Positions 1 to 29,641 of a stretch of 30,372 nucleotides of DNA are shown here, piece by piece (the first letter of the stretch is position 1; each line of letters starts with the position of its first letter). A model generated the notes under the pieces. That model was not told where the DNA came from, did no database searches, and was given only the letters and a program-made list of their open reading frames with translations. The stretch is from a virus. The DNA lies in the IMG/VR virus record IMGVR_UViG_3300032285_000795, positions 1 to 30,372 of that record; one strand, written 5' to 3'. Position numbers and translations under genes: made by a program.

Positions 1-1159
1 ACCAATCAGCAGCTTTACCAGCTTTGTCTTTGATCCAATCCATTGGACCTTCATTGAGTTGTTCAACTCGATTGAATAATACATAGACTTGACCTTCGCT
101 TAGTGGGCGAGTCTGACGATAAACACTTTCTTTTTTGCTGTTACCTGTGGCTGCTGTACCAGCACCTTGAGCAACGTCAGCCATCTTGCCAAAGAATCTA
201 GACATTTCTTCAGCACCCTGTTTCATCATCTGTGCTTTGTCAACAGTGGCGGCAATAGCATCTAGATATTGCGGGTCAGCTAATTTTTCAGTCATGTCTT
301 GTACTGTTCTAAAACCCTGTTCAGCTTGGTCGTAGGCTCCTGCTTTCCATGCTCCTACTGCATCTTTCCAAACATCTCTAATGTCTGCAACATCTGCTGC
401 CTTACCATAGAGTTCGCCTGTTGCAAATGTTCCAAATCTATCGCCAAACTCACCGCCTATTTCATCAATAGTTGCTTTGTAATTTGCCGTGACAATGTCT
501 TTGCCCATAGCATTAGCTTGTTCTATAGCCGGGGCAGTAAGAGCGTGACCAATAAAGTCAACTGCTTTACCAGTTAACCAACCAAAGGCCGCGGCTTTAG
601 CACCTTTACCTATAGCTGTTGAAAGTTTTTCGCCTTTGAGTAATTCTGCTGAGCCTTTTAAAATCTGACCAGCGATTGCGCCGCCTACAGGACCTCCTGC
701 AAGAGAAGCCATAGTAGTTAAAATACCAATAATGGCCGCAGTCTTTCCTGGATTTTCTTTAGCCCAATCACCCATACTGGCTAGGCTTTTTGCCAGCTTA
801 GGAAACTTACCTGCAACCTTGCCCTTGAGTTGTTCAAACTTCTGATCAAACATCTTAACAGGTGTGGTATTCTGCATCCACTTGCCTAGATTGTTTATGG
901 CATTGTTGGCTTCTTTGGCAACATCAACACCAAGCCCTAGGCCAGTTCTGTTATCACCACCTGCGGTAGCTGCTTTCTCTATCTCGCCAAATAGCTGTTG
1001 TATTTGTTGAGGAGCCAAACTAGCTTCAATTAGAGGAGACAGGTCATTGTAGATACCTTCTACGATAAATCTCTGATGATCAGTTAAACCATCACAAGAT
1101 TCAGCAAGTAGTTTACGACCTGCTAGAACGTGATATTCCATTAAAGTTGATATTTTCAT
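1..1159 (-). CDS. Gly/Ala-rich late structural or ejected protein, N-terminal part (partial, runs off left edge)
   Basis: The minus-strand frame is open from an ATG at 1159 to the left edge, giving 386 codons with no stop. The protein starts MKISTLMEYHVLAGRKLLAE. Residues 48-75 are a segment rich in Gln, Gly and Asn ending in GGDNRTGLG. Residues 138-166 are a Gly/Ala-rich hydrophobic stretch (AAIIGILTTMASLAGGPVGG) and a second one lies at 183-205, so the protein could enter or cross a membrane. There is no signal peptide. Near the edge it reads RPLSEGQVYVLFNRVEQLNE, then a Lys/Ala-rich helix. I recall the same N-terminal layout in uncharacterised proteins of marine T4-like phages, but I cannot name a function. 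The late-promoter motif at 1183-1190 points at this gene, which suggests a virion protein made late. A protein packed in the head and ejected into the host is one possibility; that is inference. Confidence 0.75.
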   Translation of the reverse strand, partial: MKISTLMEYHVLAGRKLLAESCDGLTDHQRFIVEGIYNDLSPLIEASLAPQQIQQLFGEIEKAATAGGDNRTGLGLGVDVAKEANNAINNLGKWMQNTTPVKMFDQKFEQLKGKVAGKFPKLAKSLASMGDWAKENPGKTAAIIGILTTMASLAGGPVGGAIAGQILKGSAELLKGEKLSTAIGKGAKAAAFGWLTGKAVDFIGHALTAPAIEQANAMGKDIVTANYKATIDEIGGEFGDRFGTFATGELYGKAADVADIRDVWKDAVGAWKAGAYDQAEQGFRTVQDMTEKLADPQYLDAIAATVDKAQMMKQGAEEMSRFFGKMADVAQGAGTAATGNSKKESVYRQTRPLSEGQVYVLFNRVEQLNEGPMDWIKDKAGKAADW

Positions 1160-1182
1160 TTAGTACTCGAAGACATATTTGT

Positions 1183-1190
1183 TATTTATT
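1183..1190 (-). promoter_or_regulatory. T4-type late promoter motif (AATAAATA) for the leftmost gene
   Basis: Read on the minus strand the bases are AATAAATA, matching the NATAAATA form of the late promoter known from T4-like cyanophages (TATAAATA in T4). It ends 23 bases before the ATG at 1159. That places a transcript start near 1176-1178 and leaves a short leader containing GAG. It would be recognised by the phage sigma factor gp55, encoded in the same window. Confidence 0.55.
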
Positions 1191-1194
1191 ACAG

Positions 1195-1690
1195 CTATGA
1201 GCTAAAGCTCATATTCGTTTTCGCTAGACGCTCAACGAATTTCTTTTCTTTTAACAGTGATGTATTATTAAGTGCGAAGCACTTAGATATTATCTAGATT
1301 GTTCAGTCACACTTAGCCCTTGCGGGCTAAAAATGAACATTATCTGAGTTGAACATGATCACTTAGCGTTACAGCATTACAGTGGCGGTTGTCCGGTACC
1401 ACGAGCTGAGTCTTAATTACAACGGCGGGTCTATACAAATACGCTAACATAGGTATAGCCGCGGGTTTTTCTCCCTCTTTTAGCCTTGATTAATACTTTC
1501 TTGTACAGTAAACCGGTTTTATAGGCATATCCGATCGTGGTCCTGTTAAGGATACTACTGTTACAACCCCTCTACCAAGTAGGGAATTCCATTGACTGCG
1601 ATCCGAGATCCAGCTTTAAGGGCACTTTAACAACGCCAGTGCAGGCTTATTTGGCAGTTATTTGCCTGGATTTATTGAGCCTAAATGTGC
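1195..1690 (-). ncRNA. Candidate structured noncoding RNA or RNA leader region
   Basis: About 550 bases between the GIY-YIG gene and the leftmost gene hold no convincing reading frame but many inverted repeats. They are TATGAGC/GCTCATA at 1196-1213, ATTCGTT/AACGAAT at 1213-1240, AAGTGC/GCACTT at 1270-1284, a 7-bp stem at 1313-1330 inside GTTCA/TGAAC at 1301-1338, GTGG-CGG/CCG-CCAC with a 3-base bulge at 1382-1402, GCGG-CTATAC/GTATAG-CCGC with a 2-base bulge at 1425-1462, TCCT/AGGA at 1541-1552, GCACT/AGTGC at 1622-1642, and AGGCT/AGCCT around GGCA/TGCC at 1643-1682. On the minus strand the 1313-1330 stem is capped by GCAA, a GNRA-type tetraloop, which favours a minus-strand RNA. I recognise no tRNA, riboswitch or named RNA family. 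It could be one large RNA, a chain of small hairpins, or partly decayed genes. Confidence 0.4.
1288..1368. repeat. Degenerate direct repeat of about 30 bases, two copies
   Basis: The plus strand carries ATTATCTAGATTGTTCAGTC followed by ACACTTAGCC from 1288, and ATTATCTGAGTTGAACATGA followed by TCACTTAGCG from 1339. The ends ATTATCT and CACTTAGC are identical and the middles differ. A third CACTTAG at 1280 belongs to the 1270-1284 hairpin. The repeats lie inside the structured intergenic region, so they may be duplicated RNA elements or protein-binding sites. Confidence 0.4.
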
Positions 1691-1710
1691 CTAACGGCTG
1701 TGTCTGTCTA

Positions 1711-2145
1711 TTATATTTTGGGTTTTTTGAGGATATGTGAGCCGTGAACTCGAACCTGTATGTGACCGTTATACCAGTCTGTAGATTCTAGAACTTTGTG
1801 TTTGAACTGTTCTCTTGCCTCGATGTAGCTGCATTCTGACTTGTTTTTGCAGTAAAATAGAATTTCTCTGGTGAAGTTTTCTTTGCCTAGTGACTCAACG
1901 TCTGCTGTTAGCGCATCGCTAGAACCATAATAGTCCTTCCAATCGCTTTCAATCTTGCCTCTAATCTTCTTTTTCTTCTTTTTGCCGTTCTTTAACGTTA
2001 CCGTCTTGTAGGTTGTTTTTGCAAATTTTGCTAGTTTCTTGCCTATGTACTTGCGCCCAGAGATGTTGTTGGTTATAAGATATACGAATCCAATATACTC
2101 TTCAGAGATTTCTTCAACGATTTTTTTCTTATAATACCAAGTCAT
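1711..2145 (-). CDS. GIY-YIG superfamily endonuclease-like protein
   Basis: This 144-aa protein has a compact GIY-YIG-type fold. The first motif is degenerate (GFVYL, residues 19-23, in place of GIY) and the second is intact (KYIGKK, 32-37). After a very basic loop with a run of six lysines (about 50-65), the pattern SDWKDYYGSS (67-76) and a later Glu in SYIEARE (E109) fit the region of this superfamily that holds the catalytic Tyr and metal-binding Glu. GIY-YIG enzymes cut DNA. In T4-like phages they include the Seg homing endonucleases, and close relatives next to gene 46 are common in marine T4-like phages. It is the last gene of the minus-strand recombination operon, starting 3 bases after the previous stop. 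It could be a homing nuclease, or a repair or host-DNA nuclease serving gp46/gp47. The superfamily call is fairly sure and the role is not. Confidence 0.7.
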   Translation of the reverse strand: MTWYYKKKIVEEISEEYIGFVYLITNNISGRKYIGKKLAKFAKTTYKTVTLKNGKKKKKKIRGKIESDWKDYYGSSDALTADVESLGKENFTREILFYCKNKSECSYIEAREQFKHKVLESTDWYNGHIQVRVHGSHILKKPKI

Positions 2146-6106: not shown

Positions 6107-6114
6107 AATAAATA
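6107..6114 (+). promoter_or_regulatory. T4-type late promoter motif (AATAAATA) for the baseplate operon
   Basis: AATAAATA on the plus strand fits the NATAAATA late promoter of T4-like cyanophages. It ends 19 bases before the gp48 ATG. The predicted transcript start near 6120 leaves a leader that carries the GGAG Shine-Dalgarno at 6123-6126. It is in the right place to drive gp48 and the genes downstream. Confidence 0.6.
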
Positions 6115-15406: not shown

Positions 15407-18400
15407 ATGGCAGATCAAATTTTTCCTCAAAGCGGCGTTCCTATTAGAAGAACCGTTGACCTATTGCCTCAGGTATTTAAAACAGAAACCAATGACAAGT
15501 TCATGGCTGCTGTGGTTGATCCTTTAGTTCAACCTGGTGTATTACAAAAAACAACAGGCTATATAGGACGTCGTTGGGGTAAAACATACAAAGGTTCCGA
15601 TATCTATCTTGACGATGATACTACCTTAAGAAGTAGATATCAACTTGAGCCAGGGGTCGTAATTAACAATGAACAAGGCCAAGTTGAAAATTTTTACGAC
15701 TACATTGATTTTAAGAATCAACTGCAATTTTTTAACAATTATAACGAACGTGATGACAAGATAACAAGTCAAGAACATTATAGCTGGACTCCTCCTATTG
15801 AATGGGACAAGTTTGTAAACTTCCGTGAATACTACTGGGTTCCTAGCGGACCACCAAGTGTAAAAGTTTTAGGCCAAGGCAACGACATTGTTAGTACCTA
15901 TAAAGTAAGACAAGGAACTACATCTAGTTGGATTTTTTATCCTGATGGATTAACTAATAATCCTACAATTACTTTGTATAGAGGACAAACTTACAAATTT
16001 AATGTCAATAGTCCTAGAGAAGGTTTTTTTATAAGAACTGCTTATGATACCGGAAGTTTAAAGTATCGCCCAGAGCTTCCTTACATTCCAAATCAGTTAG
16101 CAGTCTATGACGGAAAACTATGGAGAGCAAAAAATTATGTATCAGCTAGTGTCAACGGAACAATCACAGAAGGACTAGATTGGGAAATAGTTGAAGAAAG
16201 CGTACAGACATCTAAATTTGATTACTCTGCCGGCATTACCAATAACGGTGCAATCAACGGAACAGTTACATTTGAAGTTCCTTACGATGCTCCTGATATA
16301 CTTTATTATCAAAGTGCAATTAATCCTGATAGGTTTGGAAGATTTTTAATTCAAGACATTGAAAATAACACCAGTATTAATATTGAGAAAGAAATTATAG
16401 GTAAAGAAACCTATACCAGTAGCAATGGTATTGAATTTGTTAACGGCCTAGTTGTTAGATTTGGTGGAACGGTTACTCCTACAAAATACTCTAAAGATAA
16501 CTGGCTAGTTGAAAAAGTTGGCCGCTCTATTGTTCTAATTAAATTCTCTTCGCTTGAAGTACCAATTATCACTAGTCAAATACCGGAAGTTATTTTTGAT
16601 AATACTGGTTTTGATACGGAACCCTTTGACGATGCCACATCGTATCCCGGTGAAAAAGATTACATTACTATTTGCCGAGCCAGTATTGATAGCAATCCTT
16701 GGTCTAGATATAACAGATGGTTTCACAGAGATACATTAGAAAAAGCACACCGACTTAACGGTACTGATTTTGCCGCCGGTGATAGTTTTAGAGCTAAACG
16801 CCCTATTATTGAATTCAGACCTAGTCTACAATTATTCAATCACGGCAGTGTTTCTAAAACACCAGTTGATTTTATTGATACATTTACTTCAGATGTATTT
16901 TCAACAATTGAAGGTAGTCAAGGTTATAGTGTTGACGGTGAATTTTTATACAACGGTGCAAGAATACTTGTCATCGCTGACACTGACCCGTTAGCAAATA
17001 ACAAAATATATCAGGTTAATTTTATTACCCACAACAATCGTCAACAGATAGCACTAAAATCTGTTGACGATACAGAACCTTTATTAGGTGAATGTGTGTT
17101 AGTACGATCAGGAAATGCCAATAAAGGACTGATGTATCATTTCAACGGAACAAATTGGGTAAGAAGTCAAGATAAAATCAAAACAAATCAAGTTCCTTTG
17201 TTTGATATATTTGATACCAACGGTATCAGTTTTAGCAACACTGATACCTACCCAGTTAGTACCTTTCTTGGAACCCCTATACTTGAATATAAAGTTGGAA
17301 ATAGTATTGCTGATAGTGAATTAGGTTTTAGTTTAGATTATTTAAACATTGATAATGTTGGAGATATACAATTTAAATTTAATCTTGATTCAGACGTCTT
17401 TACCTATTCATTAAATCAACAAACTATTACTGTTAATTTAAACACTGGATTTTATAGATTTAATCCGTTAGATGAATTTTATAACGGTTGGACCACAACA
17501 GATTCTGAATACCTACAACCAATATTAGATAGTAAAGTTATCACAGAGGTAACAAATTCTATAGAGTTATTAACACTAAATTGGGAAATGTTTGATGAAA
17601 AAAATTCTAAAATTTTATTTTTTCTAAACGGCATTCACTTCAAAGACAGCTATACCCGAGTTGATGGAACATTTACTTTTGCCAATAGTTTTTCAGTCAA
17701 CGATGTAATTTCGGTTAAAATTTTTACTGACCTTGATCCTGACCAAGGATACTATGCAATACCACATGGTCTTGAAAAGAATCCATTAAATGCAGAATTA
17801 AAAACATTTACATTAGGACAAGCAACAGATCATCTTAACCTAGCACTAGATGTAGACGATAGATTCTCTGGAATATTTCCAGGAACAAGCAATCTTAGAA
17901 ACATTGACGGATATCAAAATAAAGCCACAAGATTTTTAAAACACTCCGGGATAGCCTCACTAGCGATTGATGTGCTTTGTGACAAGAATACAAATCTTAT
18001 TAAAGCTCTAAGATACAATGCTAGATCATATTCAACATTTAAAAATGAGTTTATTACTAGAATAACAGAAACAATGCCCGAAGATAGCATTACAGATTTT
18101 GTTGATAATGTAATATCTAGTATGGGACTTGCTAAAGATACAGCAAATCCGTTTGCCGGCACAGACATGATTGGTAGCGGAGCTCACACAGATATAAACT
18201 ACACAGTCGAGGATGAAGGGATTAAAGTTTTTGCCCTAAGTCAAAAATTTAATCTAACCGATCTAAGTGACCGAGCAGTTTACGTTTACCTAAATGATCG
18301 ACAACTTGTACACGGAAGAGATTATACTTTTGATGACACATTTGGTTTTGTAAGATTAACAGTAACATTAAGAGAAGGCGATGTTATTAAAATAAAAGAA

Positions 18401-21400
18401 TATGTATCTACAGCTTTTAACTACATCCCCTATACTCCTACAAAATTAGGTTTGTATAAAAAGTATCTTCCTCACAAATTTTTAGATGACACATTTCAAA
18501 CTCCTAGAGATGTAATTCAAGGTCATGATGGTAGCATTATCTCTGCGTTTGACGATTACAGAGATGATGCAATTTTAGAATTAGAACTAAGAATTTATAA
18601 TAATATCAAACAACAATATGATGTCAATTTGTTTGACATAGATACAATTTTTGGCGGATATTACGGTAATGCTCTTTACACCAAAGAGGATCTAGATGCA
18701 ATTGTTTCTCCAGACTTCTTGCGCTGGGTATCAAATACAGATATTGATTATACCAATAACGATCTTTATTTTGATAGACAAAATAGTTTTACCTATACCT
18801 ACAGCAATATGACAGACCCCGACGGTCTAAAAAATCTTCCAGGATACTGGAGAGGAGTATTTCAATGGTTTTATGATACTACTAGACCTCACACCTGTCC
18901 TTGGGAAATGTTAGGATTTAGTGAAAAACCAACATGGTGGGAAAGTGAATATGGCCCTGCACCTTACACATCTGGAAATCTATTGCTATGGGAAGATATA
19001 AGTCAAGGTATTATTCGACAAGGCAGCCGAGCCGGGACATATGACCGATATGCTAGAAAATCTATTCTAAGTCATATTCCTGTTGACGGTGACGGTAAAC
19101 TGTTAAGTCCTTTAGATTCTGGGCTAGCTACAAATTACACACTAGTTAATAATAAAGGCGATTATAAATTAGGTGACCTTAGTCCTTCGGAATTTGCCTG
19201 GAGGAGTACATCTGAATGGCCGTACTCTGTTGTAATAGCATTATCTTTATTAAAGCCCTTTGAGTTTATTACTGACAACTTTGACAAATCCAGAATGACT
19301 ATTAATAAACTCGGACAAACTGTATTCAGTGAGACTGGAGTATTTGTTAAACTTTCAGATATGAAAGTTCCTACAGTTGGCAATTTCAATGTATCGGGAT
19401 TAATTTCGTTTATTACTAGTTACATTAGAAGTAAAAATTTAAATCCTGAGCAGTTAATAACTCGTATTAATAATTTAGATGTTAAGATATCATCTAGAAT
19501 TTCTGGATTCGTAGACCAGACTGAACAAAAATATCTGTTGGATAGTAAGAACCCAAGTTCTACTTCTAGCAGCATCTATGTTCCTAATGAAAATTACAAC
19601 ATTATTTTTAATGTTAGTTCACCAATTGCCAGTCTATCATATAGCGGTGTATTAATTGAAAAATTAGCAGAAGGATGGAAAGTTAAAGGCTATGACAATC
19701 AATTGTCATATTTTACCTATTTTAAAGCAGTGTCCAGCAGCACTGATCCGTTGACCAGTGTTGGCGGAGTCAGTGCAAAGTTTTATGACTGGGCTTCTGA
19801 CAAATTGTATTCTAATGGAGACATTGTTAGAGTACAAAATCTTTACTATCGAGCATTGAAATCTCATACCAGCGGAGTATCATTTGACAGATCTCTATGG
19901 AAAGCTCTACCTAAGTTGCCAGTTGTTGGCGGGATTGAAGCTTATTTTAGAAAAACATTCGACAAACTTAAAACTCAAAAAATGTACTACGGTACAGTTT
20001 TAAGAACTGTTCAGGACGTTGTTGATTTCCTATTAGGTTACGAAGCCCATTTAAAATTTATTGGATTTAATTTTGACCGTTATGATGCTGAAACACAAAC
20101 AGCATACAACTGGCAGACCAGCTGCAAAGAATTTTTATTCTGGACTAAACATAATTGGGCAGTTGGTAGTTTGCTAACACTAAGCCCTAGTGCCCAAGAA
20201 GTTGATGTGAATATACTAAGTGGTGTACCAGATAATTTATTTGATAGTTTCTATGATTATGAAATTTTTAAAAGCGATGGAACTGCCTTATTACCGATAT
20301 TTTTAAATGTTAAAAGAGACTTTCAAAAAGTAGCTGTTAGTACAGTTAATACTAATGAAGGGATTTATTTTTTAAAACTTAACTATGTGTTAAAAGAACA
20401 CGTAGTACTGTTTGATGATCGAACAGTTTTTAACGATGTTATCTATGATAAAACCACAGGTTATCGACAAGAACGTATCAAGAGTCGCGGATTCCGTACA
20501 GTTGACTGGGACGGAGATTATACCAGCCCAGGTTTCTTGTTTGACAATGTAAACATTCAACAGTGGAGTCCTTATACTGATTATCGACTAGGTGATATTG
20601 TATCTTATAAATCTTACAATTGGGTGAGCATAGAAAACCAACAGGGAACAGAAACTTTTAGCAATACTTACTGGTCAAAATTAGATACAAATCCTAAAAA
20701 AAGTTTAGTAGCAAATTTTGATTATAGAATTAATCAGTTTGAAGATTATTTTAACGTTGATGCAGACGGACTAGGATCTAGTCAACGTGATCTAAGCCGA
20801 CATGTTATTGGTTACCAAACTAGAGAATATCTGCAGGCCATGGCTGAAGATAATGTCAGCCAGTTTAGGATTTATCAAGGTTTTATTAGAGAAAAAGGTA
20901 CAGCTAATTCTATTACCAAAGTATTTGAAAAATTAAGTAGAACCGACACAGGGAGTATTGAACTTAACGAAGAATGGGCTTTCCGTGTTGGACAATTAGG
21001 CGGGACAGATCAGTTTGTTGAAACAGAATTTAGAATTTATAAAAACAATTTAAAATTAAACCCTCAACCAATTTTACTAGCACCTACAACCGAACCTACA
21101 GACGTACTAGATCTATATCTTCGTGTGCCAGTAAACGATTTTACAATTACTGCCAATCCATTTACTAAAGATATTAATCCTGTTAAAAAATATACACTAG
21201 CTCCTCGAGTTGCAGGCTATGTTAATATATTTGATGTCAATTATGTTCTTCCGACTAGAGATGATATACTGACTCTTGACAATACTGCGTTTGAAGAAAA
21301 CATGCATGTCTGGATTACATTTGATGAAAATTCTTGGACAGTTTTAAGATATAATGTATCTCCTTTATTAATTGTGACCAGCGTTGCTACAAACAAAACC

Positions 21401-24400
21401 AGAGTAGAGTTAGGGTTTAATAGAGATCACGGATTATCCGTAGGAGATATTTTTGGTATTAGAAATATAGAAAATATCACAGGCTTCCACAAAGTCACTG
21501 AAGTTCCTACTACTAGTTCTTTGGCCATACAGGTAGCAAAAGGACCATCAGATAATTCTTTTGATGCTAGTACTGTTGTAAATCTTGAATTGCTTCATGA
21601 AGCAAGATTTGAATCTTATCAATCTTTAGATCCTGATCAAATAGCGGCTCTTAATACTGGAGCTAAACTTTGGATTGATAATAACGGATTAGACAGATGG
21701 GAAGTGATCGAAAAAGAACAACAATTCATTGCAACCGATCTTTCAGAATACGGAATTTCTGCTCCTATCCGTAACGGTTCGGCCGTAGTTTATTCAGATG
21801 CTCTAGCACAGACAATTTCTTCAATGCCTGCTAGCAACATGGTTGTTGTATATGTAGAAAGAGAAGTTGGCCTTAAGCCTTTCCAAACATTGTTAAGATC
21901 TAACAATATTACATCGTCGGGCGTGTTCGGTGAAACCCTAGCAATTAGTCCGGACGGTAAGTGGCTAGCGGTAGGTTCTCCAAACGCTAGCAATGTTACT
22001 TCAGACTACAAAGGCATTTTCAATACCACATCCACATACACAAAAGGTGACATTGTATTGTATCAGGGTAGATTATGGAGAGCTACTTCTAATATTAATG
22101 GAGACGGCAGCACAATAAATCTAGTCACAACTGATTGGGAACCTGCGACAATTATCACAGCTAATGTCACTGGCACTGGAACCGGGTATACAAAACAAGG
22201 CGCAGTAACCATGTATGAATGGAGCGGACAAAATTGGATTGAACGATTTACCTTCATCAGTCCGCGACCTAACGGCAATGAAAACTTTGGAGAAAAAATT
22301 GTACTTGGCGTTGATGCTGGAAAATATTATATGGCAATATCTGCCCCAGGAGCCTTAGGTGGAACTGGAAAAGTATATCTTTATAAGTATGCTTCGGTAA
22401 CTCAAGACACTTCTCAGACTATTAGATTGTCTGTTACGGTCGGCCCTCCACAAAATTCTGACACAGGTTACAAGTATTATATTGACAATCAATATCATCC
22501 TAATTTAACATTTGAAGTTGGAAATACATATATCTTTGATCAAACTGATTTAAGTAATGTTTATTTTCCTAATCCTGTAGCAGGAACAGTTACTAACATA
22601 CACCCTATTAATATTAGTGCTGATGATATAAACGGTACATTAGCAGGCGGCACACTTTATACTACAGGAGTGACCTACTATCTAGATAATCGTCCAGTTA
22701 CTCAAACACAATACAGTTCTGGATTTGATATTGCAACAACTAGATATGTCAAGATGGTAATCACCGAATCAACAGCTAGTGTTTTTTATTATTTTGCTTC
22801 AACACTACCTTTGTCGATGGGTAATTCTATCATTAAGAAATATCCTACAATTGCTAAAGAATGGCAGTTTGAACAAAATCAAAATTACAAAGGAATTTAT
22901 GATAAAACAGGTTCAACATTTTATGAAGTTGGTGCCGTTGTTTGGTACGATAATGCATTGTGGCAATCATTAGAAGAACAATACGGAGACGGAAGTACAC
23001 TTAATCTAAATTCTAGCCAATGGCAAAAATTAGATCCTACAAGTACTCAAAGCTCGTTGCCTTCTAATCCTGCTACTGCCGATAATGATTCTACAGTTAT
23101 ATTATCTGAAGGTTTATTATCTTTTGGACAACTAGCAGAGTTAGTTAAGGAAGGCGACAGATTTGGTTCAACACTAGCCATGAATAGAGATGGATCAACA
23201 TTGGTTGTAGGGGCACCGTTAAGTGATGGACAGTATTTTGCCAACTATCAAGGAATCTGGAGCGGCTATCAAGAATATAACGAAGGATCAGTGGTCAAAT
23301 ATAATAACAATTATTACCGACTAACTGATCCCGGAACAGATTCTACTTACAAAAGTTATAACGAAATTCCATCGGCAGGAGCTCCGTGGACTTTATTATC
23401 AACACAGTCAATTGCAGCATCTGGTAAAATCTACATTTATCAAAAAAATCTCTACGGTCTCTATAGTCTAATGCAGACAATCAATGCCAACAGCTTGCCT
23501 GCTATCAGTGATATAGTTACAGATGAAAATATATTAACTGGGGATCTATTTGGATTTGCCATTGACATAGATAACGCAGGGACAACCCTAGTAGTTTCAA
23601 GTCCTAAAGCAGACATTACTCTTCAAGACCAAGGCGCAGTCTATGTATTTGTGTATGATACTGATTCTACAATTCCTAGTTTTAGATTAAAACAAAAATT
23701 ACAAAGTTTTGAAGATTTGTCAAATGAATATTTTGGATTTAGTTTATCAATTAGCGAAAGAACTGAACGTATCATTGTAGGTGCAAAAAACACTTCTTAT
23801 ATAGTTCCTACATTATTCCAGGGCACAAGTTTTAGTGGCGCTACATTCTCTGAAAATCTAGGATATCACGGTGATGTTTACGTATTTGAACTAAAAGATC
23901 AGATTTATGTACTTGCTGAAAAATTACAAACAAATTTTGTAGATAATGAAGCATTTGGTTATGCACTAGATGCCACAGCGTCTGTAATTGTAACAGGATC
24001 ACCAAATTACAAAATATCTGGAACAGCAGTTGGTCGGACCAGATTATTTAGAAAAGATCCTACTAAAAATAGTCTTACCACAATTAGTCAAGAAACTGAT
24101 CTAGTCAATATTGATTTAATAAAGAGTATTTCTTTATACGATGATGAAAATAATATCAGACTAGCTGATGTTGATATTATTGACACAAACAAGTTTAAGA
24201 TTCTTGGATCTGCCGAAGAAGAAATTAAATTTAAAACTCCTTACGATCCTGCAACCTATACTAATGGAACAGATCAAGTGGTTGTAGATGCAGACCAAGC
24301 ATGGTTTGAAAAAAATGTTGGCGCACTATGGTGGGATCTTAGCACAGTAAAATGGGCATTGCACGAACAAGGCGATGTTGCATACCGTTCTGGTATGTGG

Positions 24401-27400
24401 AATCAATTAGCAGCAGGAGCTTCTGTAGACATCTACGAATGGGTAGAAAGTTCTGTTACACCAACCGAGTGGAAAAAACTCGCAGATACAGTTGACGGTC
24501 TTGCTAATAATATTTCTGGTCAACCTGCTTACTCTAATACTGCTTATAGCATTAAAAAATTTACTAACGCAGCTACAGGTTTAGCCTACGGGACAAAGTA
24601 TTATTTCTGGGTAAAAAATAAAACAGTTATACCACAAGGTATTCCGGGAAGAAAAATTGCCGCGGCAAACGTAGCAGCTTCGATTATTAATCCAATTGGC
24701 GAAGGTATTCCTATTATTGCTATTATTGATAAAGATAAGTTTTTAGCTTATAATTTTAATTCTGTAATTAAAGGAAATTCAGCACTACTTAACATTGAAT
24801 ATTATAAATCAGAAAGAACGCCTAACAATATTCACACTGAATATCAATTATTAACTGAAGGACAATCGTCTAGTCTGCCTAGCGAAGCACTCGAGCAAAA
24901 ATGGATAGACAGTCTAGTAGGATTTAATAAATCAGGAAATCCAGTCCCAGATTCAACTCTTAGACCAAAACAAAAATACGGATTAGCCTTTAGACCGATA
25001 CAAACTATGTTTGTAGATCGTGCAACAGCTTTAAAAATTGTCATTGATAGAATTAATAATATTCTTGTAACCAAGCCATTTAGCGACTTAATTGATTTTG
25101 AATATTTAAACAAAGTAGATGCAATACCAAGCGCAACACTTAATCTCTATGACGTCACTGTAGATACTTATGAAGAATTAGCAGAGGTAGGAATTGTAAG
25201 GGTACGTCCTGCTATATTGTCGGCAAATGTTGTAGACGGTGAAATAGACACCATTGATGTTATTGATTCTGGTTTTGGTTACAGAACAGTTCCTCCAGTA
25301 GTAATCACAGGTGACGGTGTCGGCGCCAAAGCCGAAGCAGTTCTAGATAATCAAGGTCGAGTAGTTTCTGTTAGCTTGTTACAGAAGGGAAGAAAGTATA
25401 CAACAGCAGATGTGACTGTACGTAGTTTCTCTGCACTAGTACGTTCTGACTCTACATTTAAAAATTACTGGGCAATTTATTTCTGGGATACTGCAAGAGA
25501 AGGTTTCTTTAAGAGTAAAGTGCAGGCTTACAATACTCCTAACTATTGGAATTATGTAGATTGGTATGCTACCGGGTTTGATTCTACAACTAGGATTGTC
25601 AGAGAAATTTCTGATATTTTTCAAGAAATAAATTACACATTTGAGATAGGAGATGTAATTAGAGTTAAAGAATATGCCAACGGTGGTTGGGCATTAATTC
25701 AAAGAGTTGTAGACGGAACCGGAAGTATTTTATCTAACTATGAGATGATTGCTAGAAAAAACGGAACTATTGAAATAACTAAAGATTTGTATAACGTTCG
25801 AGTTTATGATTATGTTGCGACCTATGACGAAGAAGTTTACGATAATCAACCAACTAGCGAATTAAGAAATATTCTTAATGCAGTAAAGTATAATATCTTC
25901 ATCGACGATTTAAGTGCTGAATGGAATAAACTATTCTTTACCAGCATGAAATATATATTTTCCGAACAACTATATGTTGACTGGGCATTTAAGACCAGTT
26001 TCTTAAATGCTGTACACAATGTTGGCGATTTAGATCAACGTCCAAATTATAAAAATGACAACCTGCCTAGTTTCCAACAGTACCTAGAAGAAGTAAAACC
26101 TTTTAGAACCACAATTAGAGAATATACAAGTAGGTATACTGATATTGATCATCAAGGTGCCGCTATAACTGACTTTGATGTTCCTCCTAAGTATGATAAG
26201 CAAAATAAACAAGTGTTACCTGTGTTATCTAATTCTGAAGAATTAAACTACTATCCTTATAAATGGTGGAAAGATAATCACGGATATGAGATAGTAGATA
26301 TACAATTGTCAGATCGAGGAGGTGATTACAAAACTCCTCCTAAAGTTTATATTACAGGCGACGGCACAGGAGCAACAGCTCAGGCCTATATATCTAACGG
26401 TAAGTTATCCGGAATCAGAATGTTGACTACAGGTTCGGGTTATACCGTAGCTGCTGTTAGTCTAATTGGCGGAAACGGATCTTCAACAAAGATAGCAAAA
26501 GCTTCTCCAATATTAGGTAGCGGCCAAGTTAGAAGTTTTAATCTAGCATTGAAGTTTGATAGAATAACCAAAGATGGATCATATTCAACTTATCAATACG
26601 AGCAAACATTTACAGCTGACGGATTCACAGCAGTATTTGATTTAAATTATCCACCTACACGAGACAAAACTAAAATATCCGTAATCATTAACAGTGAAAT
26701 AATATTAGATAGCGATTATTCTTTGACATTTTATACTTTAGAATCTGATACTTATGATATACTAAGAGGAAAATTAAAATTAAGTTCACTGCCGTCGGCT
26801 GGTGATGTTATTACAATCACCTACGAAAAAGATGATGCTATTTTAGATTCTGTTGATAGAATTAACAAATATTATAGTCCAACCGCAGGCATGATAGGTA
26901 AAGAAGTAAATCAGCTAATGACTGGAATTGACTTTGGTGGCGTGCAAATTCAAGGTACAACATTTGATGTGTCTGGCGGTTGGGATGCTCTTCCTTGGTT
27001 TACTGATACTTGGGACAGTGTAGAATCTAATAATGATTTCCACTATATCTCAGACGGTAGCACAACTTATGTGACTCTTCCTGAAGCCCCTGCATTAGGT
27101 CAAAGAATTTCTATATATCTAAAGCGTGTGGGTGACGGCGTTCCTCGTAGCATTGATACATTAGATTCTGCAGGTGCCCCAAGAGTCGTATTTGATCCAG
27201 GCATCCCAATTCCAGAGACAATCCGTATAGACGATCCTAGTTTTGTTGTATATCCTGACGGTACTAACAATTGGGATTCTACAATTATTACAAATCCGTA
27301 TGCCCAGATGCCTACATTTATAGGCAATGGCATAAACAAAATTGTTGAGATAGGACAATATATCACAGTCAATCCCGGAGATACATTAATATTTAGACCA

Positions 27401-29638
27401 TTTGACAGTGACGGAACTGTAAATATCACTGACATTAATATTATTGATACAAATCTTTCAGGCGGAAGTCTTAGTGCTGTTAGCGGTGCCTATGTAACAG
27501 CAACTGGAACAATGGCTGAAGATATTAATATTGACGGCGGTAAATTTATTGACCCAGACCAAGTACCAGCGCCAGAAGAAAATATTCCAGGACAGGTATT
27601 AGAAAGTGTCAGTATTAAAGTTTTCCACTCTGTACAAACTGGCGCAACTCCCTTGCATTCAAAGATCGTTAAGAGTGACGGTACTACTAGAATTTTTGAT
27701 ATTGGTCAGCCTATAATAGAACCAGACTCTGTAATAGTCTATGTTGACAAAGTTAAGTGTGATTTTTATAATGTAGACAGTTCGATAACTTATAGTATTG
27801 ATTATGTTGCAAACCAAGTAGTTTTTGCAAATGCTCCTGAGATTGGAAGCACAATTGAAATACTATCTATAGGTATAGGCGGATCTGCAATATTAGATTA
27901 TCAAGAATTTGAAGCTGACGGCGATACTGTTAATTTCTTAACTAAAGCAAATTATAAAGATACTGCAAGCGTCTTAGTAACAGTAGACGGATTACAAGCT
28001 GATGTTGCGTTTGTTAACAGTTCTGAAGTAACAGATATTACTGATAAAACTTTAATTCAAATTGGAAATCGACCAGGCCGAGGCACAGTTATAAAAATTG
28101 TTTGTCTTGGATCAGCCACAGACGTTGACTCTAATCAACAAGCATTGGTTAGAATAAATCAACAGGTTATTACTTTTGACGGAAGCACGTTAAGTTACGA
28201 TCTTGATAAATTTGTAAACTTAACTAGAGCAAGTGCCACTGGTTCTGTTCTTGTAGAAATCAATGGATTTTATCTAACAGGGCCAGAAACTGAATTTGTA
28301 ATATATGACGGTACAAATAATTTAGTAAGTATTTTTAAAGATCCTGTACAGCCAACAAATACTGCAACACAAGAAAATATTGAAGTTTTTATTAATAACG
28401 AACAGAAAAAATATATTTTAGATTATGTCTATGACGGTAATAATAATACCGTAACAGTTAACCCTGAAATCTTAAAAGTTGGCGACGAAATTAAAATTGT
28501 TATTGATGTAAACAGTCAGTATACATTTGAAAATAATAACATTGTTTTTTCAGGAACAAGTTTTGTGCAAGATGACAGCACAACAACACTACAACAGGGT
28601 GATCAAGCTACAGTTACTTGGTTCAGCGAATATCCAAGCATGAATATAATCAGCGATGAATATGCAGGCGGAAAATCTAGATACCAATTATCTAGAGATG
28701 CAATTGGCGCAAGTTATATTTGGGTATACCTAAATGGACAAAGATTAACACAGGAAAAAGATTACGAGATTTCTATTCCTAGAAATCTCGTATATTTGCA
28801 AAAACCAACCATGCTAACAGATACAATTAAAATTGTACAATTTGGAAACTATGTAAGAAGACAAAGTCTAGGATTTGAAGTATTTAAAGACATGTTGAAC
28901 ATACATCATTTCAAACGTTTCAGCATTGATAAATCTGTAACATTAGTCAATGATTTATATTATTACAATCGAGAAATAATTGTTACTGATGCATCGATGT
29001 TATTTGATCCTATCCCTTCTAGAAATATTCCAGGTACAGTTTATATCAACGGTGAACGAATAGACTATTATGTTAAAAATGGAAATACTTTAACTCAGTT
29101 ACGTAGAGGAAGTTCTGGAACATCTATTGCTGAAATGTATGTAGCAGGTACACCTGTAGTTGATGTTAGTCGAGTTGAAAGTTTGCCCTATAACGAAGAA
29201 CAGGAAAGATTAGATTTTGTCAGCGACGGCAGCAGTTTATTAGTGGGCCCATTATCTTATGTTCCTGTAATCAGTGAAAAGTCATGGACTAGAACTACAA
29301 TTCCAACAGGTTTTGATAGCTGCGATCAAATTGAAGTTTTTGTTGCAGGAAGAAGACTTCGTAAAGATGCTGTTACAATTTATGATCAAACTTTAAACAT
29401 AACAAGCCCTCAGGCAGATATTGAAGTTGAACCAGAATTTACCGTTGACGGAACCAATCCTTATATTAGATTAACCAGTGTTGTTCCTGCAGGAACACGT
29501 ATCACAATCATAAGAAAATTAGGAAAAGTTTGGTATGACCGAGGAGAAAGTTCAGCGAGTTCGGGTGTAACTTTGCTTAAAAATCTAGGATCAATCCCTG
29601 AATTTTTAAAACAAAAGAGCACCGAGCTGCCTGAATAA
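15407..29638 (+). CDS. Giant multidomain baseplate/tail structural protein (4743 aa)
   Basis: A single open frame encodes 4743 aa. It starts 14 bases after gp6 with AAGG 8 bases before ATG. The N-terminus (VFKTETNDKFMAAVVDPLVQ, IGRRWGKTYKG) and the segment CPWEMLGFSEKPTWWESEYG (about 1164-1183) match what I recall of giant structural proteins of marine T4-like phages that follow gp6. T4 has genes 7 and 8 here, so this may replace or absorb a peripheral wedge protein. Visible modules are: cupredoxin-like domains (about 185-310 and 2335-2475), six aromatic CBM5/12-like modules (about 222-263, 1460-1502, 1717-1759, 2201-2247, 2494-2542, 2614-2664), six FG-GAP-type repeats (about 2171-2884), two Gly-Tyr-Pro-Pro repeats (about 3280-3339, 3632-3690) and beta-sandwich repeats with VYVNG-type strands (about 3730-4743). 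A host-surface contact role is inferred. No catalytic motif was seen. Confidence 0.88.
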   Translation: MADQIFPQSGVPIRRTVDLLPQVFKTETNDKFMAAVVDPLVQPGVLQKTTGYIGRRWGKTYKGSDIYLDDDTTLRSRYQLEPGVVINNEQGQVENFYDYIDFKNQLQFFNNYNERDDKITSQEHYSWTPPIEWDKFVNFREYYWVPSGPPSVKVLGQGNDIVSTYKVRQGTTSSWIFYPDGLTNNPTITLYRGQTYKFNVNSPREGFFIRTAYDTGSLKYRPELPYIPNQLAVYDGKLWRAKNYVSASVNGTITEGLDWEIVEESVQTSKFDYSAGITNNGAINGTVTFEVPYDAPDILYYQSAINPDRFGRFLIQDIENNTSINIEKEIIGKETYTSSNGIEFVNGLVVRFGGTVTPTKYSKDNWLVEKVGRSIVLIKFSSLEVPIITSQIPEVIFDNTGFDTEPFDDATSYPGEKDYITICRASIDSNPWSRYNRWFHRDTLEKAHRLNGTDFAAGDSFRAKRPIIEFRPSLQLFNHGSVSKTPVDFIDTFTSDVFSTIEGSQGYSVDGEFLYNGARILVIADTDPLANNKIYQVNFITHNNRQQIALKSVDDTEPLLGECVLVRSGNANKGLMYHFNGTNWVRSQDKIKTNQVPLFDIFDTNGISFSNTDTYPVSTFLGTPILEYKVGNSIADSELGFSLDYLNIDNVGDIQFKFNLDSDVFTYSLNQQTITVNLNTGFYRFNPLDEFYNGWTTTDSEYLQPILDSKVITEVTNSIELLTLNWEMFDEKNSKILFFLNGIHFKDSYTRVDGTFTFANSFSVNDVISVKIFTDLDPDQGYYAIPHGLEKNPLNAELKTFTLGQATDHLNLALDVDDRFSGIFPGTSNLRNIDGYQNKATRFLKHSGIASLAIDVLCDKNTNLIKALRYNARSYSTFKNEFITRITETMPEDSITDFVDNVISSMGLAKDTANPFAGTDMIGSGAHTDINYTVEDEGIKVFALSQKFNLTDLSDRAVYVYLNDRQLVHGRDYTFDDTFGFVRLTVTLREGDVIKIKEYVSTAFNYIPYTPTKLGLYKKYLPHKFLDDTFQTPRDVIQGHDGSIISAFDDYRDDAILELELRIYNNIKQQYDVNLFDIDTIFGGYYGNALYTKEDLDAIVSPDFLRWVSNTDIDYTNNDLYFDRQNSFTYTYSNMTDPDGLKNLPGYWRGVFQWFYDTTRPHTCPWEMLGFSEKPTWWESEYGPAPYTSGNLLLWEDISQGIIRQGSRAGTYDRYARKSILSHIPVDGDGKLLSPLDSGLATNYTLVNNKGDYKLGDLSPSEFAWRSTSEWPYSVVIALSLLKPFEFITDNFDKSRMTINKLGQTVFSETGVFVKLSDMKVPTVGNFNVSGLISFITSYIRSKNLNPEQLITRINNLDVKISSRISGFVDQTEQKYLLDSKNPSSTSSSIYVPNENYNIIFNVSSPIASLSYSGVLIEKLAEGWKVKGYDNQLSYFTYFKAVSSSTDPLTSVGGVSAKFYDWASDKLYSNGDIVRVQNLYYRALKSHTSGVSFDRSLWKALPKLPVVGGIEAYFRKTFDKLKTQKMYYGTVLRTVQDVVDFLLGYEAHLKFIGFNFDRYDAETQTAYNWQTSCKEFLFWTKHNWAVGSLLTLSPSAQEVDVNILSGVPDNLFDSFYDYEIFKSDGTALLPIFLNVKRDFQKVAVSTVNTNEGIYFLKLNYVLKEHVVLFDDRTVFNDVIYDKTTGYRQERIKSRGFRTVDWDGDYTSPGFLFDNVNIQQWSPYTDYRLGDIVSYKSYNWVSIENQQGTETFSNTYWSKLDTNPKKSLVANFDYRINQFEDYFNVDADGLGSSQRDLSRHVIGYQTREYLQAMAEDNVSQFRIYQGFIREKGTANSITKVFEKLSRTDTGSIELNEEWAFRVGQLGGTDQFVETEFRIYKNNLKLNPQPILLAPTTEPTDVLDLYLRVPVNDFTITANPFTKDINPVKKYTLAPRVAGYVNIFDVNYVLPTRDDILTLDNTAFEENMHVWITFDENSWTVLRYNVSPLLIVTSVATNKTRVELGFNRDHGLSVGDIFGIRNIENITGFHKVTEVPTTSSLAIQVAKGPSDNSFDASTVVNLELLHEARFESYQSLDPDQIAALNTGAKLWIDNNGLDRWEVIEKEQQFIATDLSEYGISAPIRNGSAVVYSDALAQTISSMPASNMVVVYVEREVGLKPFQTLLRSNNITSSGVFGETLAISPDGKWLAVGSPNASNVTSDYKGIFNTTSTYTKGDIVLYQGRLWRATSNINGDGSTINLVTTDWEPATIITANVTGTGTGYTKQGAVTMYEWSGQNWIERFTFISPRPNGNENFGEKIVLGVDAGKYYMAISAPGALGGTGKVYLYKYASVTQDTSQTIRLSVTVGPPQNSDTGYKYYIDNQYHPNLTFEVGNTYIFDQTDLSNVYFPNPVAGTVTNIHPINISADDINGTLAGGTLYTTGVTYYLDNRPVTQTQYSSGFDIATTRYVKMVITESTASVFYYFASTLPLSMGNSIIKKYPTIAKEWQFEQNQNYKGIYDKTGSTFYEVGAVVWYDNALWQSLEEQYGDGSTLNLNSSQWQKLDPTSTQSSLPSNPATADNDSTVILSEGLLSFGQLAELVKEGDRFGSTLAMNRDGSTLVVGAPLSDGQYFANYQGIWSGYQEYNEGSVVKYNNNYYRLTDPGTDSTYKSYNEIPSAGAPWTLLSTQSIAASGKIYIYQKNLYGLYSLMQTINANSLPAISDIVTDENILTGDLFGFAIDIDNAGTTLVVSSPKADITLQDQGAVYVFVYDTDSTIPSFRLKQKLQSFEDLSNEYFGFSLSISERTERIIVGAKNTSYIVPTLFQGTSFSGATFSENLGYHGDVYVFELKDQIYVLAEKLQTNFVDNEAFGYALDATASVIVTGSPNYKISGTAVGRTRLFRKDPTKNSLTTISQETDLVNIDLIKSISLYDDENNIRLADVDIIDTNKFKILGSAEEEIKFKTPYDPATYTNGTDQVVVDADQAWFEKNVGALWWDLSTVKWALHEQGDVAYRSGMWNQLAAGASVDIYEWVESSVTPTEWKKLADTVDGLANNISGQPAYSNTAYSIKKFTNAATGLAYGTKYYFWVKNKTVIPQGIPGRKIAAANVAASIINPIGEGIPIIAIIDKDKFLAYNFNSVIKGNSALLNIEYYKSERTPNNIHTEYQLLTEGQSSSLPSEALEQKWIDSLVGFNKSGNPVPDSTLRPKQKYGLAFRPIQTMFVDRATALKIVIDRINNILVTKPFSDLIDFEYLNKVDAIPSATLNLYDVTVDTYEELAEVGIVRVRPAILSANVVDGEIDTIDVIDSGFGYRTVPPVVITGDGVGAKAEAVLDNQGRVVSVSLLQKGRKYTTADVTVRSFSALVRSDSTFKNYWAIYFWDTAREGFFKSKVQAYNTPNYWNYVDWYATGFDSTTRIVREISDIFQEINYTFEIGDVIRVKEYANGGWALIQRVVDGTGSILSNYEMIARKNGTIEITKDLYNVRVYDYVATYDEEVYDNQPTSELRNILNAVKYNIFIDDLSAEWNKLFFTSMKYIFSEQLYVDWAFKTSFLNAVHNVGDLDQRPNYKNDNLPSFQQYLEEVKPFRTTIREYTSRYTDIDHQGAAITDFDVPPKYDKQNKQVLPVLSNSEELNYYPYKWWKDNHGYEIVDIQLSDRGGDYKTPPKVYITGDGTGATAQAYISNGKLSGIRMLTTGSGYTVAAVSLIGGNGSSTKIAKASPILGSGQVRSFNLALKFDRITKDGSYSTYQYEQTFTADGFTAVFDLNYPPTRDKTKISVIINSEIILDSDYSLTFYTLESDTYDILRGKLKLSSLPSAGDVITITYEKDDAILDSVDRINKYYSPTAGMIGKEVNQLMTGIDFGGVQIQGTTFDVSGGWDALPWFTDTWDSVESNNDFHYISDGSTTYVTLPEAPALGQRISIYLKRVGDGVPRSIDTLDSAGAPRVVFDPGIPIPETIRIDDPSFVVYPDGTNNWDSTIITNPYAQMPTFIGNGINKIVEIGQYITVNPGDTLIFRPFDSDGTVNITDINIIDTNLSGGSLSAVSGAYVTATGTMAEDINIDGGKFIDPDQVPAPEENIPGQVLESVSIKVFHSVQTGATPLHSKIVKSDGTTRIFDIGQPIIEPDSVIVYVDKVKCDFYNVDSSITYSIDYVANQVVFANAPEIGSTIEILSIGIGGSAILDYQEFEADGDTVNFLTKANYKDTASVLVTVDGLQADVAFVNSSEVTDITDKTLIQIGNRPGRGTVIKIVCLGSATDVDSNQQALVRINQQVITFDGSTLSYDLDKFVNLTRASATGSVLVEINGFYLTGPETEFVIYDGTNNLVSIFKDPVQPTNTATQENIEVFINNEQKKYILDYVYDGNNNTVTVNPEILKVGDEIKIVIDVNSQYTFENNNIVFSGTSFVQDDSTTTLQQGDQATVTWFSEYPSMNIISDEYAGGKSRYQLSRDAIGASYIWVYLNGQRLTQEKDYEISIPRNLVYLQKPTMLTDTIKIVQFGNYVRRQSLGFEVFKDMLNIHHFKRFSIDKSVTLVNDLYYYNREIIVTDASMLFDPIPSRNIPGTVYINGERIDYYVKNGNTLTQLRRGSSGTSIAEMYVAGTPVVDVSRVESLPYNEEQERLDFVSDGSSLLVGPLSYVPVISEKSWTRTTIPTGFDSCDQIEVFVAGRRLRKDAVTIYDQTLNITSPQADIEVEPEFTVDGTNPYIRLTSVVPAGTRITIIRKLGKVWYDRGESSASSGVTLLKNLGSIPEFLKQKSTELPE
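16070..16196 (+). other. Carbohydrate-binding-like module 1 of the giant protein, inserted in a cupredoxin-like domain
   Basis: It encodes about residues 222-263, with NQLAVYDGKLWRAKNYV then a final DWEIV. The order of an aromatic, V-x-Y-x-G, (L/Y)-(W/Y)-R-A and a closing W resembles CBM5/12 chitin-binding modules. Sequence on both sides (LYRGQTYKFNV before; TVTFEVPYDAPDILYYQS after) reads as one split cupredoxin-like domain. Confidence 0.4.
19784..19912 (+). other. Carbohydrate-binding-like module 2 of the giant protein
   Basis: It encodes about residues 1460-1502: YDWASDKLYSNGDIVRVQNL, then YYRALKSHTSG and LWKAL. This is the clearest CBM5/12-type pattern: an aromatic start, Y-x-x-G-D-I-V, YYRA, and a final W. 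Binding to chitin, peptidoglycan or surface polysaccharide is inferred only. Confidence 0.5.
20555..20683 (+). other. Carbohydrate-binding-like module 3 of the giant protein
   Basis: It encodes about residues 1717-1759: QQWSPYTDYRLGDIVSYKSY, then NWVSIENQQGTET and YWSKL. It has the same module order as the other copies, including Y-x-x-G-D-I-V-x-Y and the closing W. Confidence 0.5.
21917..24058 (+). repeat. FG-GAP-like beta-propeller region of the giant protein, with inserted modules
   Basis: It encodes about residues 2171-2884. Six copies share a pattern: F-G-x-x-(L/I)-x-(I/M/L), then D-x-x-x-x-L-V-V-G-(S/A)-P, sometimes followed by G-x-V-Y-(V/L)-(F/Y). They are GVFGETLAISPDGKWLAVGS, NFGEKIVLG with AISAPGALGGTGKVYLY, RFGSTLAMNRDGSTLVVGAP, LFGFAIDIDNAGTTLVVSSP, YFGFSLSISERTERIIVGA, and AFGYALDATASVIVTGSP. 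This is the integrin-alpha type FG-GAP repeat, which builds seven-bladed propellers used for adhesion. Three carbohydrate-binding-like modules (22007-22147, 22886-23032, 23246-23398) and a cupredoxin-like stretch sit between the blades. A seventh blade was not identified. Confidence 0.6.
25244..25423 (+). repeat. Gly-Tyr-Pro-Pro repeat, copy 1, in the giant protein
   Basis: It encodes about residues 3280-3339. The key parts are DSGFGYRTVPPVVITGDGVG, then AKAEAVLDNQGRV and KGRKYTTADVTV. This is a short beta repeat, common in phage tail proteins, built on G-x-G-Y, P-P-x-V-x-I-x-G-x-G-x-G-A-x-A. It pairs with the copy at 26300-26476. Confidence 0.55.
26300..26476 (+). repeat. Gly-Tyr-Pro-Pro repeat, copy 2, in the giant protein
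   Basis: It encodes about residues 3632-3690. The key parts are DRGGDYKTPPKVYITGDGTG, then ATAQAYISNGKLSG and TGSGYTVAAVSLIGG. Copy 1 lies about 1.05 kb upstream, and the core ITGDGxGAxA is the same in both. Confidence 0.55.
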
Positions 29639-29641
29639 ATA
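29634..29641 (+). promoter_or_regulatory. Late-promoter motif overlapping the giant gene's stop codon
   Basis: AATAAATA spans the TAA stop of the giant gene and ends 4 bases before the first ATG of the next gene. A transcript from it would begin at about 29646-29648. That would be nearly leaderless for the first ATG but would give about 28 bases of leader for the ATG at 29676. The match to NATAAATA is exact, though short enough to be chance. Confidence 0.35.

Follow-up and report, generated by a model that had tools for sequence, protein, structure and literature searches.

Gene content of the locus

The window analysed here is a 30,372-base IMG/VR virus record. It carries genes of T4 type, namely the late sigma factor gp55, homologs of gp47 and gp46, a SegE-like GIY-YIG gene and baseplate genes. 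A single ORF of 4,743 aa on the plus strand (15407-29638) takes up nearly half of the window. The region of interest lies between the SegE-like gene and the gene downstream of it:

1711-2145 (-), SegE-like GIY-YIG endonuclease gene (PF19835, E 1.6e-32)
1171-1701 (-), full conserved RNA of ~530 nt, given by the iterated nhmmer match of locus L001 (1701-1171)
1183-1189 (-), ATAAATA, read as the late-promoter motif of the downstream gene, just 3' of the RNA
2-1159 (-), downstream gene of at least 386 aa without a Pfam or PHROG match

The stretch from 1160 to 1710 was confirmed as a real, gene-free and non-coding region, as had been proposed for these ~550 bases. The only ORFs within it are one of 36 aa on the minus strand and a 67-aa GTG ORF on the plus strand, and the maximal reading without a stop codon in the RNA body, taken over 151 homologs, is 69 aa in the median, as compared to 67 aa in shuffled sequences. 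A protein-coding reading was rejected on these grounds. The identity of a tRNA or tmRNA was rejected as well. The remaining gaps between ORFs in the window are as small as had been stated (0-42 bases; 0-75 in the prediction). Counting inverted repeats of at least 6 nt within 80 nt yielded 24 pairs in 1160-1710, where at least eight had been claimed; the number expected by chance was not computed. The folding energy is marginal, with z = -1.74 on the minus strand and -1.52 on the plus strand, and on either strand 5 out of 100 shuffled sequences fold equally well.

The order on one strand in nearly all phage loci is gp55, gp47, gp46, (small ORF), SegE-like gene, RNA. The RNA begins near the SegE stop codon and is on the SegE strand in every locus where both were located, and the gene downstream of it varies between phages. 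The closest relative of SegE is found in Methylophilales phage Melnitz (51% aa), in which the gene order around this relative is different.

An RNA extending beyond family RF01718

A cmscan search of the whole window against Rfam, suggested in the original prediction as a check, identified one family:

1501-1647 (-), 5' domain, RF01718 Polynucleobacter-1 (79.9 bits, model positions 1-141 of 141)

The score is above the gathering cut-off of 37 bits across the full model, so that family membership is met. The prediction had overlooked this known family, and any other Rfam family was rejected for the RNA. The RNA does not stop at the end of the 141-nt model, since ~330 nt of conserved, covarying sequence follow on its 3' side, and the best-conserved part of the RNA by blastn falls outside RF01718. 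RF01718 is only the 5' third of an RNA of ~480-530 nt on the minus strand, the strand that had been suspected, with a true extent of ~1171-1701 rather than 1160-1710. The alignment of homologs covers nearly the same interval:

1170-1698 (-), alignment span of the RNA in 151 sequences

Within the literature searched, the names Polynucleobacter-1 and RF01718 were found solely in Weinberg et al. 2010 (PMC2864571). No longer description of this RNA was found in that literature, which did not include the supplement of the 2010 paper. In Table 1 of the paper, which was available in part, the motif is listed with 'y' for RNA, 'y' for cis-regulation and '?' for switch. The catalogued 141-nt orphan motif makes up only the 5' third of an RNA that ranks among the larger structured RNAs known from phages.

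Homologs in phages

Viral contigs were fetched with a conserved RNA pattern and with the SegE protein. Iterated nhmmer searches matched 153 of 200 loci over up to ~530 nt, and a second scan with a 3'-core pattern added 110 viral loci, all of which were confirmed (110/110). Of the 340 loci available at that stage, 264 match the RNA profile and 225 are near full length. These are counts of loci and not of phages, because many loci come from one contig. Locus L124, with a blastn match of 35 nt only, and locus L137 have no profile match; both stretches terminate at or just past the SegE gene. Removal of loci truncated at contig ends and of near-identical loci reduced the 264 loci to 218 and then to the 151 used for covariation, a set that excludes type-B (see below) and bacterial sequences.

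The two parts of the RNA occur together. Of the 224 loci in which the 5' domain has at least 600 nt of contig available, 222 also contain the 3' end after it, and of the 229 loci with room ahead of the 3' end, 223 contain the 5' domain. The six exceptions are five type-B RNAs (L148, L176, L179, L182, L184) and locus L274. Ten loci matched in the 3' part only in the iterated nhmmer search, and RF01718 was found in none of the eight that were searched for it. Type-B RNAs (L146, L148, L170, L176, L179, L182, L184) share the 3' core and the motif pair described below; their 5' domain is different and lacks a match to RF01718. In four of the six type-B loci read, an ORF of 282-342 aa lies between SegE and an intact RNA.

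The RNA is very common in metagenomic T4-like phages, yet blastn with the window region, a type-B copy, the core and a bacterial copy gave no match in 50,697 records of cultured phages, a negative result bounded by the sensitivity of blastn.

Conserved secondary structure

Covariation in homologs, which had been proposed as a further check, was analysed in the 151 non-redundant full-length sequences. A total of 43 column pairs covary at E<0.05 under tree-preserving nulls (21 pairs in a pilot with 80 sequences). The E-values were obtained with our own R-scape-like script (20 null alignments, exponential tail) and not with R-scape. Standard pairs predominate in 31 of the 43 (64-100%), and 19 of these 31, those of two pseudoknots among them, are located outside RF01718, on its 3' side. 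The other 12 consist of non-standard combinations, namely six off-register neighbours of real pairs, two column pairs in the 5' domain and the four that make up the motif pair. The helices comprise P1, P3 and P4 in the 5' domain, P5-P8 in the core and a terminal hairpin:

1622-1642 (-), P1, hairpin of the 5' domain (5 pairs, 98% paired, 2 significant covarying pairs)
1556-1562 with 1505-1510 (-), P3, which encloses P4 (98% paired, 4 significant covarying pairs)
1531-1536 with 1511-1516 (-), P4 (98% paired, 2 significant covarying pairs)
1428-1460 (-), P6, hairpin (GCGG-CTATAC) outside RF01718 (covarying columns 233-260, 234-259, 235-258, 242-251)
1363-1447 (-), PK1, pseudoknot of the P6 loop TTAGCGT (1441-1447) with ACGCTAA (1363-1369)
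1388-1423 (-), PK2, pseudoknot of GTTGT (1419-1423) with ACAAC (1388-1392) in the P8 loop
1372-1408 (-), P7 (1405-1408 with 1372-1375) enclosing P8 (1398-1402 with 1382-1386), supported by covariation
1384-1400 (-), near-universal core GGTACnGGnnnACCGCC (nearly all columns 78-80/80)
1313-1330 (-), hairpin TTAGCCC/GGGCTAA between the motif copies (GCCC/GGGC conserved, few informative changes)
1213-1240 (-), part of the 3' double hairpin, ATTCGTT-GAGCGTCTAGCGAAA-ACGAAT
1196-1213 (-), part of the 3' double hairpin, TATGAGC..GCTCATA

The RF01718 helices P1, P3 and P4 are upheld in this clade, where they covary and are 98% paired. All seven pairs of PK1 have changed on both sides (94.2% of cells paired). 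In PK2, 94.5% of cells are paired, and the pair 269-299 shows two-sided changes on 19 branches and one-sided changes on none. Covariation in P7 and P8 was observed for columns 281-317, 282-316, 283-315, 287-307 and 288-306, with column 287 of the core GGTACnGGnnnACCGCC being C in 69 sequences and A in 11. The terminal hairpin of the 3' double hairpin (1196-1240) contains five significant covarying pairs. Some members carry an extra core stem of variable length.

In a separate alignment of 73 sequences, including five type-B sequences and one bacterial sequence, 82.9% of cells are paired in the structure that includes both pseudoknots, as compared to 70.2% after shuffling, and its covariation is 0.357 as compared to 0.154; none of 500 shuffles reached either value. 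Sliding the partners by 1-3 columns reduced pairing to 36-48%. Lower pairing was recorded for P6a (62%) and the 1313-1330 hairpin (67%), which is due at least partly to misalignment.

Several of the hairpins had been proposed from the sequence of the window. The bulged hairpin at 1425-1462 (GCGG-CTATAC/GTATAG-CCGC) is conserved and covaries. For the hairpin at 1382-1402, the outer GTGG/CCAC is conserved and covaries, whereas the inner CGG/CCG is not a conserved pairing, because the loop pairs with 1419-1423 as a pseudoknot. As for the two abutting hairpins, 1622-1642 is the first hairpin of RF01718 and covaries, but 1643-1682 as one hairpin has no support from covariation.

Palindromes in a DNA-level element, such as an origin, a packaging site or a recombination site, might mimic RNA hairpins, and the recombination genes gp46 and gp47 are nearby. 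However, the compensatory changes include many G-U states, the helices cross on one strand, the orientation with respect to SegE is constant wherever both were located, and the whole RNA is kept in bacterial chromosomal copies, so that we give this explanation almost no credence. A ribozyme or intron-like element, or its remnant, is only marginally easier to entertain and remains highly improbable. The RNA adjoins a GIY-YIG gene and has a compact, doubly pseudoknotted core, but matches to group I, group II and all other ribozyme families were absent at every threshold reported (only RF01718 was found at E<=5), no gene is interrupted by the RNA, and the GIY-YIG protein is of the SegE family and encoded outside the RNA.

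The RNA meets the working definition of a large ornate phage RNA, a kind rather than a homology family, in being at least ~400 nt long, conserved, covarying, pseudoknotted, non-coding and phage-borne. The Rfam match, the compensatory changes and the absence of a protein reading support the large structured phage RNA of the original prediction, and we conclude that the RNA is almost certainly real, large and mostly uncatalogued.

Two motif copies that change in concert

Four covarying column pairs that do not form base pairs (339/390, 344/395, 348/399 and 350/401) are each 51 columns apart and tend to have the same letter. They belong to two motifs, ACTC[X]G and ATCT[X]A, and to the base preceding X, where X is a stretch of seven bases:

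1338-1349 (-), motif copy 1, ACTC[AGATAAT]G (same 7-mer as copy 2)
1288-1299 (-), motif copy 2, ATCT[AGATAAT]A (same 7-mer as copy 1)

X occurs in 12 forms, and yet its copies match each other exactly in 146 of 147 non-redundant sequences and in 238 of 239 loci, the sole exception being locus L160; when the copies were paired by permutation, a mean of 28 and a maximum of 42 were identical. On the tree, changes in the two copies coincide as strongly as those in true helices. For columns 344/395, changes are shared by the copies on 29 branches and confined to one copy on 6, whereas the base before X (339/390) is looser, with 20 shared versus 24 single changes. The anchors ACTC and ATCT remain different, which argues against gene conversion.

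A partner of X was sought within the RNA and among the neighbouring proteins. No third strand within the RNA covaries with X. Scanning the RNA for the reverse complement of X, in a run in which ~20 motifs were mis-registered, gave 3 hits, no more than the rate in the controls, and a base-pairing partner within the RNA was rejected on account of this lack of enrichment. SegE, gp46, gp47 and gp55 were rejected since none of their residues accounts for more than 0.43 of the entropy of the labile column 344, as compared to 0.90 shared between the two copies of X. Columns 348 and 350 reach up to 1.0 with residues of neighbouring proteins; these have few branch changes and look clade-specific.

The simplest reading, for which no partner has been found, is that the motif copies act as a pair of equivalent docking sites, both for a single partner that differs from phage to phage. 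Whatever the motif pair binds must vary in step with it, which is an unusual and directly testable clue.

Putative late promoters around the RNA

The motif ATAAATA is located just 3' of the terminal hairpin in 87 of 151 flanks, with no occurrence upstream of the RNA and one inside it. It is depleted in the window, where 3 sites were found as compared to 15.5 expected, and each of the three (1183-1189, 6108-6114 and 29635-29641) lies in front of a gene, which we read as a clear late-promoter map. In the contigs analysed, 79 of 120 occurrences of TATAAATA are followed by an ORF start at a distance of 15-80 nt, as compared to 4 of 134 and 1 of 26 for TATTAATA and TATATATA; near-variants are intermediate (AATAAATA 42/98, TAAATATA 46/101, ATTAAATA 13/50 and TTATAATA 18/170). 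We read ATAAATA and TATAAATA as the T4-type late promoter. The promoter of the downstream late gene is thus often placed after the RNA, which argues against a role of the RNA as a leader. No clear promoter was found for the RNA itself on the minus strand, where the one sigma-70-like site is located inside SegE and is at chance level, and no terminator-like site was found on that strand.

Copies in bacterial islands and a second RNA

Among 399 genomes from the order to which G350 belongs, 5 gave an RF01718 match, four of them above the cut-off; in a family-level sample, 1 of 399 genomes did so. A search of 399 genomes with the R1 model found nothing; it also missed G350, a known carrier, and this negative result is therefore uninformative. 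The bacterial hosts are inferred to be Burkholderiales, because G001, which carries locus L316 (a Curvibacter record), was the starting point from which this genome group was found. The label 'freshwater' rests on these bacterial relatives and on a taxon note in the table of Weinberg et al. 2010, as far as the table was available. In the genome_contigs collection, one of 29 matches is real (L328), on a contig binned as an uncultured Bacteroidetes; since a T4 baseplate gene accompanies the RNA core there, it is probably a mis-binned phage contig.

Each of five bacterial copies (L342, L353-L356) is divergent from a DUF6641 gene (Pfam), and by eye all five contain the core. In genome G765 (L353), integrase genes are located on both sides. 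In total, 24 DUF6641 genes were identified in 17 of the 399 genomes, and 7 of these adjoin the RNA (L378 as judged by eye). In six of the 7 bacterial RNAs the two copies of X agree, and in L378 they are off by one base, again by eye; the forms of X in bacteria have not been seen in phages. DUF6641 was also considered as the phage partner of X and rejected, with 0 of 24 RNA-bearing virus records matching in a search in which the controls were silent, and no viral relative; the same family search matched in the 17 genomes.

The DUF6641 genes of small-genome Burkholderiales (L342, L353-L380) were observed with variable divergent cargo, consisting of this RNA, of RNA-B with a small ORF, or of other sequences, and a TAAATA element sits between the gene and the cargo. 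After leaving out 7 unreadable loci of the 24, TAAATA directed towards the RNA or other cargo was present within 260 nt in 14 of 17, as compared to 0.14 expected per locus. The DUF6641 loci have the appearance of a mobile island, or of a satellite, in which the cargo can be exchanged.

RNA-B (TTGTAATAnnnCGGCTAATGA ... AGCCGTCGTnTGACTTCA) is a second structured-looking RNA, present in the DUF6641 islands (L361, L364, L371, L372, L380) and in viral contigs (L381-L401 except L386, e.g. L384:7600-8050), and without a match in Rfam. A basic ORF of 66-132 aa ends 1-48 nt ahead of RNA-B and is alike in bacteria and viruses (L372 versus L398, E 2e-5). For RNA-B, the 6-mer belonging to each locus recurs upstream at 13 of 13 non-identical loci, as compared to 16 of 118 for the 6-mers of other loci. 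RNA-B is like the RNA of the window in its occurrence in both settings, in a GAGCGnnAGCGA-like 3' element that is found in many copies, and by eye in a hairpin, GGCTATA..TATAGCCGTCGTATGAC, that resembles P6. In contrast, its sequence is otherwise different and a small basic ORF precedes it.

Possible function

The cis-regulatory label of 2010 is poorly supported, and there are no expression data. As a cis-acting element, the RNA would be a 5' leader of the downstream late gene or a 3'-UTR stability element of the gp46/SegE message. This agrees with the tentative 'y' for cis-regulation in Table 1 of Weinberg et al. 2010 and with the position of the RNA, which in nearly all phage loci lies after SegE and before the next gene; however, the parts of that paper that were available state that cis-regulation is usually assumed from a location upstream of genes. 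Conservation is lacking for the downstream gene, which in many cases has a late promoter of its own past the RNA, an ORF separates SegE from the intact RNA in type-B loci, and the bacterial copies have entirely different neighbours and a divergent gene. For these reasons we favour action in trans and consider a cis-acting element unlikely. The adjacency to SegE is very constant in phages, and a cis role towards SegE is therefore not excluded.

In the absence of transcript data, we infer that the RNA probably acts in trans, as a docking scaffold or within an RNA-protein particle. It would be a single molecule of ~480-530 nt, heavily pseudoknotted, noncoding and produced from the minus strand. 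In the phage it may form the last part of the gp55-gp47-gp46-SegE operon transcript and be released from it by cleavage or, alternatively, be made from a promoter inside SegE, and would appear before or alongside late transcription. The pseudoknotted core would hold out the two motif copies as equal docking sites for one partner, conceivably a protein dimer or an RNA in trans, which would have to change when the motif changes. In the bacterial islands, the RNA would be a unit of its own behind the TAAATA element.

A broader interpretation, which as a whole is speculative and more doubtful than not, is that this RNA and RNA-B belong to an undescribed mobile 'paired-site' RNA class and are a currency of conflict between phage and satellite or phage and host. 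If so, each RNA would show two identical copies of a variable motif and a common 3' double hairpin, and both would be common to T4-like phages and the DUF6641 islands of small-genome Burkholderiales. The island TAAATA would then resemble a phage late promoter as if expressed only upon infection by a T4-like phage, and the motif pair would be a recognition code matching the partner of its own lineage.

Comparison with known RNAs

The 5' 147 nt of the RNA correspond to the whole 141-position model of RF01718. The model does not contain the pseudoknotted core, the concerted motif pair or the 3' double hairpin. Moreover, the RNA is mainly phage-borne here, and action in trans fits it better than the cis-regulatory label of RF01718.

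No motif of ROOL or GOLLD had been recognised in the original prediction, in agreement with Rfam, which gives no match to either; for GOLLD, the model did not match at the gathering threshold over the window or at E<=5 over 1100-1800. GOLLD is often located near tRNA islands (PMC12286853, available in part), whereas the window has no tRNA, and the RNA described here is shorter than GOLLD, which it resembles in being large, ornate, phage-borne and rich in pseudoknots. ROOL is described in the available part of the same paper (PMC12286853) as a large multi-pseudoknot RNA of phages or prophages with unknown function. The present RNA is likewise a large multi-pseudoknot phage RNA and differs from ROOL in the lack of an Rfam match and of a tRNA in the window. 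The function of such RNAs is still open for GOLLD and ROOL too, and the full-length copies in bacterial islands provide tractable hosts for asking what they do.
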